A DNA stretch of 64,000 nt from Bryum argenteum (Eukaryota > Streptophyta > Bryopsida > Bryales > Bryaceae): assembly GCA_037043015.1 (NCBI GenBank), contig CM073323.1, forward strand, positions 13,203,758-13,267,757, written 5' to 3'. A model generated the notes under the pieces. That model was not told the origin of the DNA. It ran no database searches and worked only from the letters and a program-made list of their open reading frames with translations. Position 1 is the first letter of the stretch, and each line of letters opens with the position of its first letter. The position numbers and the translations under genes are program-made. This document shows, piece after piece, positions 11,389 through 61,799 of the stretch.

Positions 11389-11870
11389 TCAATGACAAAA
11401 CTATAATTAGATGAATTAAGATGATCGCACACAAAGTTAAACTCACCTCCATAAACGGAAACATTTTTGCACACCTTGCCTAAAAGGTTAAAGGGAATGG
11501 CATAACGATCAATATTTCCAAACATAAGGAACGAATTGCTTGATCAAAGTAGAATAAAACCATTGTACAAACAACTTCCTTTCTCGACATAACATAAACA
11601 AGGAGAAGCAAGAAATTGGGAGACATTACTAAATCACAAATAAAATATTTGTGTGTAGAGATTATGAGTGTACATGTTGAACAGTTTCATAATGTTGTCA
11701 CATAGGTTTCCCACCAAATTCAATCAGAAAGTATATGTATTGGGTACTAAGTTTTGACAAAGTTTAATAAAAAAGTATGTATACTAAGTACTAAGTTTTG
11801 ACATTGAGATACTTTGCACAAAAACGTCTTGCATTTCACATTCCACTCAAAAAGGGTCAAAAAGGGTTAA

Positions 11871-12298
11871 CCCTTAAACGCCCAAGCAAGCCCGAGGGGC
11901 TTGATTCCAACAGAATCTTCCCTGTAGCTCTCACTGTACTCTACTTTTCACTTATATTTTGATGTCAAACTGGTCACCTTCTTCTGATGTATTGAAAAAG
12001 TGAGATTTGACAATCCAAATCACAATTTGTTTGAGTGATTTTGTGCTTTGAAAGGATTATGGTAGGTAGGTTGGGGTGGTACATAACCTTGTAGAAGGTT
12101 GCAAGCTCATCATTGATTGGTTCATTCACAATGCCCAAGTTCAAAAAGTGCACTATTCATGATGCCCAAGTCCAAAAAAAGTGCACTATTCATGATGCCC
12201 AAGTCCAAAAAAAGTGCACTATTCATGATGCCCAAGTCCAAAAGATGCTGTGATCCAATTTTGGGCTGCCCATTTCAGACCCCAAGGGCGTTTAAGGG
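11871..12298 (+). mobile_element. 428-bp MITE with piggyBac-type ends at TTAA
   Basis: The ends are CCCTTAAACGCCC and GGGCGTTTAAGGG, a perfect 13-bp inverted pair. TTAA lies immediately outside both (11867-11870 and 12299-12302). A TTAA target with C-starting ends is the piggyBac signature. The interior is non-coding and contains a 33-bp tandem repeat near the right end. A second copy in the opposite orientation lies at 19528-19889, and a 72-bp deletion derivative lies at 37554-37625. Confidence 0.8.
12138..12245 (+). repeat. 33-bp tandem repeat inside the TTAA element
   Basis: About three to four units of a motif built on ATGCCCAAGTCCAAAAAAAG followed by TGCACTATTCATG. The unit is a multiple of three, which creates a repetitive open frame (MPKSKKSALFM) that should not be taken for a gene. 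The copy at 19528-19889 has fewer units, so this array expands or contracts between copies. Confidence 0.85.
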
Positions 12299-12390
12299 TT
12301 AAGTCAAGGTTTGTCGATACGTCTGTGACATACTCTAGCAAGATTCCTACCACATGCAACTTTGCACTTGCCCAAAAGCATGCACATTAA

Positions 12391-12833
12391 GGTAGAATGC
12401 CCTTAAACCGCTCGAATAAGGGATTCAGCATGGTTGTGGACTTCGTGTGTATTATTTGAAATTTTTCTTTGATGCGAAAACAGGAGGGAGAGTGAATGCA
12501 AAAATTTCCAGAATTAAATAGCAAAAACTGAATTTACTACAAATTTTTGAAGTCAAAAGTGTACATGACCTTAAAGTGATCAGTAGCCTCTCTTTTTTAT
12601 GTGCATGACCTCTACTAGTTGTTGGTCATGGTTGAACCTTAAATCGTGAATCAATGAGTCAGGGAATCTACCCAATTAATCCAATCAGCTCTCTTTAAAT
12701 AGAATAAAAATAATATTCTGTAATTCCAAATATCAGACATGACAGGAGCAATTAAAGATTCAGAGCATGGGCGGTTGGAAGGGTGGTCTACTGATTGGTT
12801 TTGGGGGGGTGAGCGGTTTAAGGGCATTCTACC
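12391..12833. mobile_element. 443-bp MITE, GGTAGAATGCCCTTAAACC ends at TTAA
   Basis: The left end GGTAGAATGCCCTTAAACCG and its exact reverse complement at 12811-12833 form a perfect terminal repeat of about 23 bp. TTAA flanks both ends (12387-12390 and 12834-12837); the symmetry even extends to CATTAA/TTAATG. The target could be TTAA or TAA. The motif CCCTTAAAC is shared with the piggyBac-like family next to it, but the first bases differ. Confidence 0.75.
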
Positions 12834-13030
12834 TTAATGGGGTCGGACCCACACTACGGCTTACCACTTGAATATAAGCAAGTATCTTTTTGTCTCATCC
12901 CATCAACACGTTGTAAGGGGAAGCTTTGGAACTGCATCTTCAAGGCATGGTACAAGCTTTTACTAATCAGTTGGCAAGAAAGCTGATTTGCAACATTCCA
13001 ATGATCAATGGATCAAACATAAATCATACT

Positions 13031-18508: not shown

Positions 18509-19527
18509 TAACAGAGTACTAGAATACAAAAGTATATCTCATGTACATCTATGGTAGGTGGCTCAAAACCTACACAGCACCACAAACAGCTACTAGACTT
18601 ATTTAAGCAAGAGGTGTAATCTAGCTTTCAACTTCAAATTTAACTGTACTCATGGTGTACATGTTAGGTTGAACAATCTGGGTACACTCGTTGGTTCCAC
18701 TTCCACAATTCATAACTAATTCATTTTCATCCAGTGTGAACATTTCTAGTCAATCCAAATTCTTACAATCTATGCAAATCTTCCAAAATTTTATTCATTT
18801 TGTGACTTTTCATTGAGATGGCGAGATTGAAATTTGAGCGGTTTCCAAGTCACTTACTATTACACTTTCAAGTGCTTTCAGTACATGGTATTTTAGGTCC
18901 GAACAAGATGTCCTAAATATATAGGTATACGAGATTGGAGAATAGAGTACACAAGAACTCTTTGTAGTTGGATAATTATGCATTAGGAAATAATGTATCC
19001 CCTTGTAAGGAAGTGCAATGATGGGTTTTTTCCATTCTAGAAACTTGACATAAGTAATATTGAATATACTCATATCACAAAAAATAAGTGTATAATAAGA
19101 CACCATTTTTGTATAATAAGATTTGATGTGATTACCCTTTTCTTCCTATGCATATTTTGGAGGTTCATCTTGCAAAATCGATTGTGGACTTGGTTGACAT
19201 ATCTTGTCATCATGTAACAAATTATTGCTAGGCATCAAGGTTTGAAAGTCAACTAGGCCCTCATTATCATAACAATGAGGGCAAGAAAATAAAAATACCA
19301 CAACAACAATCACATAACAAAGAAATATATAGATGAAACCACACGCAAGACAATAGTATGAAATAGGAGGCAAGGCAAGATCATAGCAACAATAAGTAAA
19401 AGCAATGAGCACAGGTGAGTAAATCGCTGAGTAAAATGTTCGTCATTTAATGAGTAGGTCAAGGTCTCAACATGCCATGCCTGACACTTTATCTCCAGTA
19501 GATGACCTGAAGTGGACAACCACTTAA

Positions 19528-19889
19528 CCCTTAAACGCCCATGGGGTGTGAAACGGGCAGCCCAAAATTGGATCACAGCATCTTTTGGACTTGGGCATCA
19601 TGAATAGTGCACTTTTTGAACAAGGGCATCATGAATGCACCAATCAATGATGAGCTTGCAACCTCTTACAAGGTTATGTACAACCCCAACCTCGCTACCA
19701 CAATCCTTTCAAAGCACAAAATCACTCATACAAATTGTGATTTGAATTGTAAAATTTCACCTTTTGAATGCATCAAAAGAAGGTGACGAGTTTGACATCA
19801 AAATATAAGTGAAAAGTTGAGTACAATGAGAGCTACAGAGAAGATTCTGTTGGAAGGTGACCCCTCGGGTCGCCTTGGGCGTTTAAGGG
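19528..19889 (-). mobile_element. second piggyBac-like TTAA MITE, 362 bp
   Basis: Ends CCCTTAAACGCCC and GGGCGTTTAAGGG are flanked by TTAA at 19524-19527 and 19890-19893. The interior is collinear with the reverse complement of the copy at 11871-12298, including CAAAATCACTCA, TGATGAGCTTGCAACC and AGATTCTGTTGGAA. It is shorter, partly because it carries fewer 33-bp tandem units. Confidence 0.82.
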
Positions 19890-20084
19890 TTAAGAACCCT
19901 ATTTGCTATACGTTTCAAAATCAAAGAACATCACTGAAGGGCCACAAAATCTGTGGTCAACAACCACAAAATCAGGAACAACGAATTTGTTGTCATACTG
20001 CACCAAATATTCATCAAGACACATCAGCCAGTTTACTGAGCTGAAAGCATCATGAATCGATGCTCTCGCAATCAGTTCGCTTAA

Positions 20085-36998: not shown

Positions 36999-37553
36999 TT
37001 TTTCAGTACAATCATTCATATATTGCGTCACTTTAGAGACGGTGTGTTGTTATTTATGAATGACATCAATTAGTAGAGCTTATAGTTGGCAAACGTTACA
37101 TGAATTTGAGAACTTTTAACCTGTAATTAGAGCGGATGTGACGATCATTGTGGTTGTTGGAAGCCAATTTTCAACCGCTGGGACAGTTGCTCCTTTGTAT
37201 TGTAAAATGCCCAAATGCATGTGATGTTATTGTTAAATGCAATTTGAGAAACAAAGTATACTTATGTTTAGGAATGTTCTTCATGTAAAATTAATGATTC
37301 ATTTTTCATAATCAATCCTTGGAAAAAAAAAAATCTGCAATTATTGTGGACAAACACATATTTTTACAAATATATTTTAGAGCATGAAGACCAGGTGAAG
37401 TCCTTTCCTTGAACATAAGAGCAAAAATAAATACTTGCTCAATTGTCATGGTAAGTTGAAATTTATTGTCTACAATTTAATTGTAGATTATATTTAGAAC
37501 ACTTTGTCAAAGCTCATGTTCATTTTGTGTATATGATATGAGTGGTTTGTTAA

Positions 37554-37625
37554 CCCTTAAACATCAGAGCATGCCCCTCGGGCTTGGTTTCCAGTGTATT
37601 TTCAGAGGGGCTTGACGTTTAAGGG
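37554..37625. mobile_element. 72-bp deletion derivative of the piggyBac-like TTAA family
   Basis: CCCTTAAAC at the left and GTTTAAGGG at the right are flanked by TTAA on both sides (37550-37553 and 37626-37629). The interior keeps only subterminal GCCCCTCGGGCTTGG and AGAGGGGCTTGACG blocks, which resemble the subterminal GCCCGAGGGGCTTGA of the 11871 copy. It lies about 550 bp downstream of the SS4 stop. Confidence 0.75.
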
Positions 37626-37629
37626 TTAA

Positions 37630-61523: not shown

Positions 61524-61725
61524 GCTTTGTAAGAAGAGAAACTCCAACCTATTTAGAGGATGGCGTGATAGAGTGTTTGTTCAACCTATTCTTGGATGTA
61601 TGCCTCGAGGTCATCACAGTAATGGCCAGACTCCTAACCCCTCTTGCGGTGAACACTATGCTAGTTCCTACCTAGCCATTAGTGCCTTAGAGATATCCGA
61701 CATGGTATTTTCCCAAAGGGCTTTG
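61524..61725 (+). mobile_element. relic arm of the 8119-8592 foldback family
   Basis: AGAGAAACTCCAACCTATTT, GGATGGCGTGATAGAGTGTTTG, GTAATGGCCAGACTCC and ACCCCTCTTGCGGTGAACAC with TATGCTAGTT follow the same order as the left arm at 8119-8260. It is diverged and lacks a second arm. A 22-bp direct duplication (CCCCCACTGCCATAGTTGGG) lies just beyond, at about 61748-61791. Confidence 0.55.
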
Positions 61726-61799
61726 AAGTACCCATACAACAGTCCAAGACCCCCACTGCCATAGTTGGGACCCCCACTGCCATAGTTGGGTGGACCATG

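Follow-up and report, generated by a model that had tools for sequence, protein, structure and literature searches.

Transposons of the piggyBac superfamily are treated as elements of animals, fungi and protists that occur occasionally in plants, and the tips of the insect piggyBac of Trichoplusia ni begin with CCC, as do those of the moss elements described here. In the part of the T. ni work that is accessible (structures 6x67/6x68; PMC7351741), D268, D346 and D447 are the active-site residues of the transposase, the target is TTAA, the two ends are unlike, and the left end carries, at bp 17-33, a palindrome bound by a dimer of the C-terminal Cys-rich domain, the right end being arranged differently. 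We find aligned DDD residues, the TTAA target, unlike ends, one of them with a palindrome at bp 17-33, and a C-terminal Cys-rich domain in elements of the moss Bryum argenteum; these differ from T. ni piggyBac in their host, in other subterminal sequences, in greater length (4.5-8.2 kb, with an 897-codon main frame and a probable upstream exon), and in thousands of MITE ends. The piggyBat transposase of bats (9c0f), from an animal host, is related to the protein of one full-length moss element (L009) over residues 425-895 of the latter (E 7.7e-24), Cys-rich tail included, but matches it less well than insect piggyBac does. A survey of animal piggyBac families in small genomes reports, in its accessible text, TTAA in most of them and CCCTT as the commonest tip motif, both as found here, although it covers animals only and leaves MITEs out (PMC10813416).

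As to plants, the accessible text of a 2008 paper describes five superfamilies, piggyBac not among them (PMC2528002); a 2015 table places PiggyBac among the superfamilies found in all groups studied (PMC4438587), a fern repeat table gives 1230 PiggyBac copies amounting to 122 kb (PMC6890710), a 2023 review counts PiggyBac among angiosperm MITE superfamilies (PMC10004981), a 2024 review names it among plant superfamilies (PMC10794571), and a 2025 beetle paper describes piggyBac as occasional in plants, for instance in red algae (PMC12732532). As far as the accessible portions of these sources go, the plant entries (PMC6890710, PMC10004981, PMC12732532) are counts or labels, compared with our elements by name and not by sequence, whereas the present work brings the ends, the empty sites and the transposase together for a single host. 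A literature search, with most subscription journals outside its scope, gave, among the papers listed, no report of piggyBac in a moss by title or start of abstract, and no paper on the end sequence by title and abstract; a text match in a paper on the moss Niphotrichum proved to be the word ‘piggybacking’. The superfamily is a known one; we consider the host, the abundance and a family of 72-bp elements worth reporting, though they may be known elsewhere.

The window, that is, the whole 64,000-nucleotide stretch analysed (C3:13203758-13267757), belongs to a 258.8-Mb genome in 25 contigs, 21 of which comprise eleven of 7-44 Mb and ten of at most 115 kb. It holds three elements, e1, e2 and e3 (Table 1), with ends CCCTTAAAC/GTTTAAGGG and six junctions that all read TTAA; the positions given for them in the initial annotation, junctions included, proved exact on re-reading. 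The same annotation had assigned common ends to all three and placed them in a single MITE family. The first of these claims stands for nine bases, CCCTTAAAC, after which the six ends no longer all agree (e3 reads CCCTTAAACATC at its left end), and the second gives way to two families: e1 and e2 belong together, e2 aligning over its full length with the reverse complement of e1 and differing mainly by a 33-bp tandem expansion in the latter, while e3 represents a separate family of 72 bp whose likeness to e1 and e2 is limited to the ends. Inverted repeats that start with CCC, a mark of the piggyBac superfamily, are present at six of six ends. The window contains a fourth TTAA-bounded element with different ends, GGTAGAATGCCC (GGTAGAATGCCCTTAAACCGCTC); its end sequence TTAAGGTAGAATGCCC occurs 18+17 times genome-wide, against 0 for the backwards control. 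A starch synthase fragment, with chloroplast starch synthase 4 as its best match, also lies in the window.

Table 1. Coordinates of the TTAA-bounded elements of the window and of their parts (position 1 is the first letter of the window)
Feature	Position	Strand	Basis or remark
TTAA, left target duplication copy of e1	11867..11870		read directly
e1, 428-bp piggyBac-type MITE; B end left, A end right	11871..12298		ends and TTAA
Palindrome, bp 17-33 of e1 B end	11887..11903		7/8 pairs, centre 25; putative transposase-binding site
33-bp tandem array within e1, 3.7 copies	12124..12243	+	repeat analysis of e1
GGGCAGCCC (read from right end), bp 28-36 of e1 A end	12263..12271		read directly
TTAA, right target duplication copy of e1	12299..12302		read directly
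Fourth TTAA-bounded element	12391-12833		TTAA at 12387-12390 and 12834-12837
TTAA, left target duplication copy of e2	19524..19527		joined-flank query: two flank matches overlap by 4 bases
e2, 362-bp MITE of the e1 family, opposite orientation (A end left)	19528..19889		ends and alignment
GGGCAGCCC, bp 28-36 of e2 A end	19555..19563		read directly
Palindrome, bp 17-33 of e2 B end	19857..19873		6/8 pairs, centre 25
TTAA, right target duplication copy of e2	19890..19893		read directly
TTAA, left target duplication copy of e3	37550..37553		read directly
e3, 72-bp mini-element	37554..37625		genome C3:13241307-13241386, TTAA included
Palindrome, bp 17-33 of e3 left end, centre 48 bp from right end	37570..37586		6/8 pairs, centre 25
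TTAA, right target duplication copy of e3	37626..37629		read directly

That three insertions obeying one rule are not a product of chance, as had been argued at the outset, is borne out by controls. When the window was scanned for inverted 12-mers with at most one mismatch, no more than 1500 bp apart and directly inside two copies of one tetramer, TTAA gave four cases (e1, e2, e3 and the fourth element), compared with 0, 0, 1, 0, 0 and 1 for six control tetramers; genome-wide, TTAACCCTTAAAC was found 3171+3128 times and the same pattern read backwards 17+19 times. By itself, and at a tolerance of one mismatch, the 9-mer CCCTTAAAC showed no enrichment in the window (17 found, 14.3 expected): the signal above chance resides in paired ends plus TTAA.

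Pairs of such ends lying 5.2 and 8.2 kb apart in the genome were fetched as L009 and L010. L009 is an element of 5191 bp with TTAA on both sides, and its 897-codon frame encodes a protein that matches the piggyBac family DDE_Tnp_1_7 at all 349 of 349 positions (E 1.4e-82), the sole Pfam family at E <=0.01 for this protein and for two pieces from L010. Against the PDB it matches 6x67 (E 2e-29) and 9c0f (E 7.7e-24), with no other match up to E 0.1. Residues D572, D651 and D764, counted by hand in the alignment, fall on D268, D346 and D447 of chain 6x67, which fits our assumption that this chain is the insect piggyBac transposase. The C-terminus of L009-type transposases carries a VDxxDQ motif followed by a Cys-rich tail (CxxC...CxxC...CxxxC) that aligns with the tail of piggyBat and is, by its sequence, a putative zinc-binding domain. 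A second conserved frame upstream of the transposase frame, seen in L079, L081, L082, L083, L084 and L010, is probably an N-terminal exon of the same gene.

Within the L009 group we looked for the ends of eight elements, and six have CCCTTAA at both ends with TTAA outside; L053+L080 and L073+L084 have one end each, their second end having been sought and not found. The six full-length elements (lengths taken by hand: L009, 5191 bp; L010, 8208 bp; L049+L079, 4942 bp; L058+L081, 5404 bp; L064+L082, 4461 bp; L072+L083, 5041 bp) all encode DDE_Tnp_1_7 domains, unbroken in five and broken in L010. Four of the six have CCCTTAAAC at both ends, and the other two a variant tip at one end, CCCTTAAGT in L058+L081 and CCCTTAAAG in L064+L082. 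The initial annotation had read TTAA with CCC ends as a piggyBac signature and had looked to a full-length copy with a DDD transposase of that family, or with one of another class, to decide the matter; the former is what these elements contain, with the catalytic aspartates aligned, and the latter was not seen. A tandem array with matches at 63-bp offsets lies between one end and the gene in L009 (L009:657-892), and L010, with its broken transposase gene, has internal repeats of its own (L010:5766-6760).

What ties the short elements to the long ones is the arrangement of their ends. At both of its ends e1 resembles L009, matching it at 87-90% over the terminal 30-38 bp; a blastn comparison at E 1e-4 matched neither e2 nor e3 to L009 or L010, and e1 and e2 have asymmetric subterminal motifs in common with the full-length elements. 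Each element possesses two unlike ends, A and B; in L009, A is the one 3' to the gene. By eye, nine of the 11 A ends examined have GGGCAGCCC at or adjoining bp 28-36 (it is absent from the L064 A end and from one e3 end), and eight of the 12 B ends have CTGTAGCTC close to bp 51, in MITEs and full-length elements alike. The B ends also carry a palindrome for which bp 25 is the best centre, outright or in a tie, in 10 of the 12, the exceptions being L020, in which that centre ranks third, and L010, which prefers bp 24; its arms covary between families (CAAG/CTTG, AGAG/CTCT, CATG/CAT). Mean pairing of 5.75 out of 8 exceeds all 5000 shuffles (maximum 3.33), a figure that is descriptive because the ends are related and were chosen by hand. 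Unlike ends with an internal palindromic repeat are a feature of the piggyBac superfamily, and the position of the repeat, the same bp 17-33 as in the insect left end, supports the same reading here. At L016:219-615 there is a hybrid MITE that combines one L009-type end with one from a 234-bp family.

Synthesising these observations, we hold with high confidence that e1, e2 and e3 belong to piggyBac transposon families of this moss, as non-autonomous (MITE) members whose full-length relatives with like ends encode a DDD catalytic domain and a C-terminal Cys-rich domain. In the cycle that we envisage, an L009-type transposase, to judge from the ends that enclose its gene, would move the MITEs: it would bind the CCCTTAAAC tips and, through its Cys-rich domain as a dimer, the palindrome that one end carries at bp 17-33; the element would then be cut out via hairpin intermediates and inserted at a TTAA, whose 4 bp would be duplicated. 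Binding of the palindrome, catalysis, hairpins and a seamless excision are all drawn by analogy from the insect system, and the moss system may be active today.

Kolobok and Sola3 also use TTAA, each with its own type of transposase, and the tetranucleotide by itself is not diagnostic of a superfamily. Had one of these moved e1-e3, the likeness to piggyBac would be confined to target and tips; no full-length parent was found for e3, and our search of the genome for transposases addressed DDE_Tnp_1_7. Against this, full-length elements with these ends enclose a DDE_Tnp_1_7 gene, Pfam gave no other family at E <=0.01 for the L009 protein or the two L010 pieces, and e1 matches both L009 ends, such that we regard the involvement of another TTAA-targeting superfamily as very unlikely.

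The target itself could in principle have been misread. Plant MITEs are mostly of Tc1/mariner or PIF/Harbinger kinds, with a TA or TWA target and a free outer base, and on a single copy TTAA-CCC and TA-ACCC are indistinguishable, the TTAA then arising from A...T element ends that abut the target. The genome-wide count of ends with TTAA, proposed in the initial annotation, speaks to this point: CCCTTAAACGCCC marks 1866+1828 = 3694 ends, of which 1666+1632 = 3298 (89.3%) are directly preceded by TTAA and 396 are not. Under a TA or TWA target the outer T should vary freely, yet it is changed at 92 of the 3694 ends and the second T at 89; the two changes are equally rare, which fits a decayed 4-bp target, and the genome-wide constancy of the outer T identifies that target as TTAA. 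A TA or TWA target is thereby largely refuted, and with a piggyBac transposase inside the elements we give it next to no credence. In the loci examined, 36 of 39 end pairs (not all of them distinct places) have TTAA on both sides, the exceptions being L006 (right flank AAAA), L099 and the fourth element of the window. A 596-bp family with CCCTTAAAC at both ends has TTAA on one side only in all three copies seen (L006:1505-2100; C1:5243290-5243886; C1:29682089-29682685) and is perhaps a composite with an internal end. At L026:194-199 two elements stand end to end with one TTAA common to both, as expected when an element inserts at a TTAA adjoining another.

Empty sites bear on the same rule. 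The joined flanks of 36 TTAA-flanked pairs, searched against the loci examined and the window, gave five spanning matches. Two are clean paralogous empty sites (L013 versus L004, and L090 versus its own nearby duplicate), and each has one TTAA where the occupied copy has the element plus two. Two others have the right length and are diverged, L092 versus window 61537-61756 (CTAG) and L095 versus L014 (TAAG), and the fifth, L087 versus L094, is an ambiguous site. The L092 insertion has flanks that are 79% alike to the window stretch at 61537-61756, a repeat that reads CTAG in place of the TTAA of L092. The outcome that the initial annotation had named as grounds for rejection, empty sites lacking a single TTAA, was not seen. 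The comparison of occupied with empty sites that it proposed thus succeeds for two clean sites of other copies and fails for the window's own three, for which searches of the genome with joined flanks (queries shortened to 228 bases for e1 and 178 for e2) match only those flanks and yield no empty paralogue, each of the three sites being present once in the genome.

A profile search of the genome for DDE_Tnp_1_7 gave 775 first-look candidates; 116 were scored and all of them exceeded the cut-off, which sets the number of transposase domains at 116 or more. Every scored domain covers 318 or more of the 349 positions, and together they are spread over all eleven large contigs. Internal stops are present in 23 of the 116, and six matches with an identical score are probably recent copies. 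In 14 control genomes the same family gave 0 matches, a weak control, the make-up of those genomes not being listed. Contamination as the source of the transposase genes, or domestication of a gene that has no link with the MITEs, might be entertained since piggyBac is discussed chiefly in animals, where domestication is known (accessible text of PMC12732532), but 116 domains on all eleven large contigs, chlorophyll-binding genes on the same contigs, full elements with TTAA and like ends, and a pair of copies (L049/L050) 98% alike from TTAA inward with unrelated flanks make either idea exceedingly improbable.

Chlorophyll-binding matches number 90 in this genome. The L102 gene has its best matches in chain 9 of 7xqp and 8htu (418 and 416 bits), ahead of long fused 9vfj chains (246-345) and the nearest ordinary chain (215); we take chain 9 to be Lhcb9 of Physcomitrium patens, a moss-specific antenna protein. 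The four best matches of an Lhca3-like gene are in 8htu, 7xqp, 7ksq and 6l35, presumably all P. patens structures, and an Lhcb gene, less discriminating, matches two fused 9vfj chains first and two moss chains next. Together, these matches mark the host as a moss. Weak chlorophyll-binding matches cluster at C5:8.16-8.41 Mb, C5:14.73-14.76 Mb and C2:25.06-25.09 Mb; they cover positions 31-161, in frames of ~220-370 codons, and are perhaps expanded ELIP genes, an expansion associated with drought-tolerant plants.

The transposases are diverse. Comparison of 28 of 31 frames (two short frames and the duplicate L050 were dropped) separates main groups that are ~25-42% identical, and the tree contains at least five deep lineages, with the single lineages L051 and L075 on long branches whose joining is unsure. 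A branch supported at 100/100 separates the nine-member L009 group (clade A) from the rest. Seven of the nine members showed CCCTTAA ends; in the sequence examined, L070 and L076 showed none. L049 and L050 (the place of L009) match from exactly the TTAA inward and have unrelated flanks, which makes them two separate insertions. Apart from this pair, locus-by-locus comparison revealed no clear ends for the other transposase lineages. Such a number of deep lineages speaks for either long residence or repeated entry.

The family of e3 merits separate consideration. Genome-wide there are 179 TTAA-flanked mini-elements with 40-70 bases between terminal 9-mers (the pattern is self-complementary and was counted once); at least one, L099, is a tandem-end artefact, leaving up to ~178, e3 included. 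Among the ~50 places listed, most are 71-72 bp long and nine, judged by eye, have one identical sequence at different sites. These elements contain a single palindrome, which occupies bp 17-33 counted from one end and is centred 48 bp from the opposite end; none of the full-length elements recovered proved to be their parent. We speculate that the 72-bp family could be a minimal piggyBac substrate in which one palindrome would serve both ends, read from the other end at ~48 bp like the spacer-shifted repeat of the insect right end; that it may have spread recently to well over 100 sites in the moss; and that insects and mosses may have retained the palindrome at one position because it is there that a dimer of the Cys-rich domain reads it. 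That said, a donor built with two left ends was not mobilised in cells by the native insect enzyme (PMC7351741, accessible text), which makes a 72-bp donor demanding and counts against a one-palindrome reading, and the want of a known parent for e3 lowers its probability further; we advance this model tentatively, doubt slightly outweighing belief.

Finally, with at least 116 transposase domains, many of them uninterrupted, several deep lineages and thousands of MITE ends, piggyBac emerges as a prolific resident of a land plant. The moss transposases would offer a plant-derived, TTAA-specific source for seamless editing in plants, where the insect enzyme is used now (references in the accessible part of PMC12732532), and the short donors, down to 72 bp, provide a natural series for defining the minimal DNA needed at each piggyBac end.
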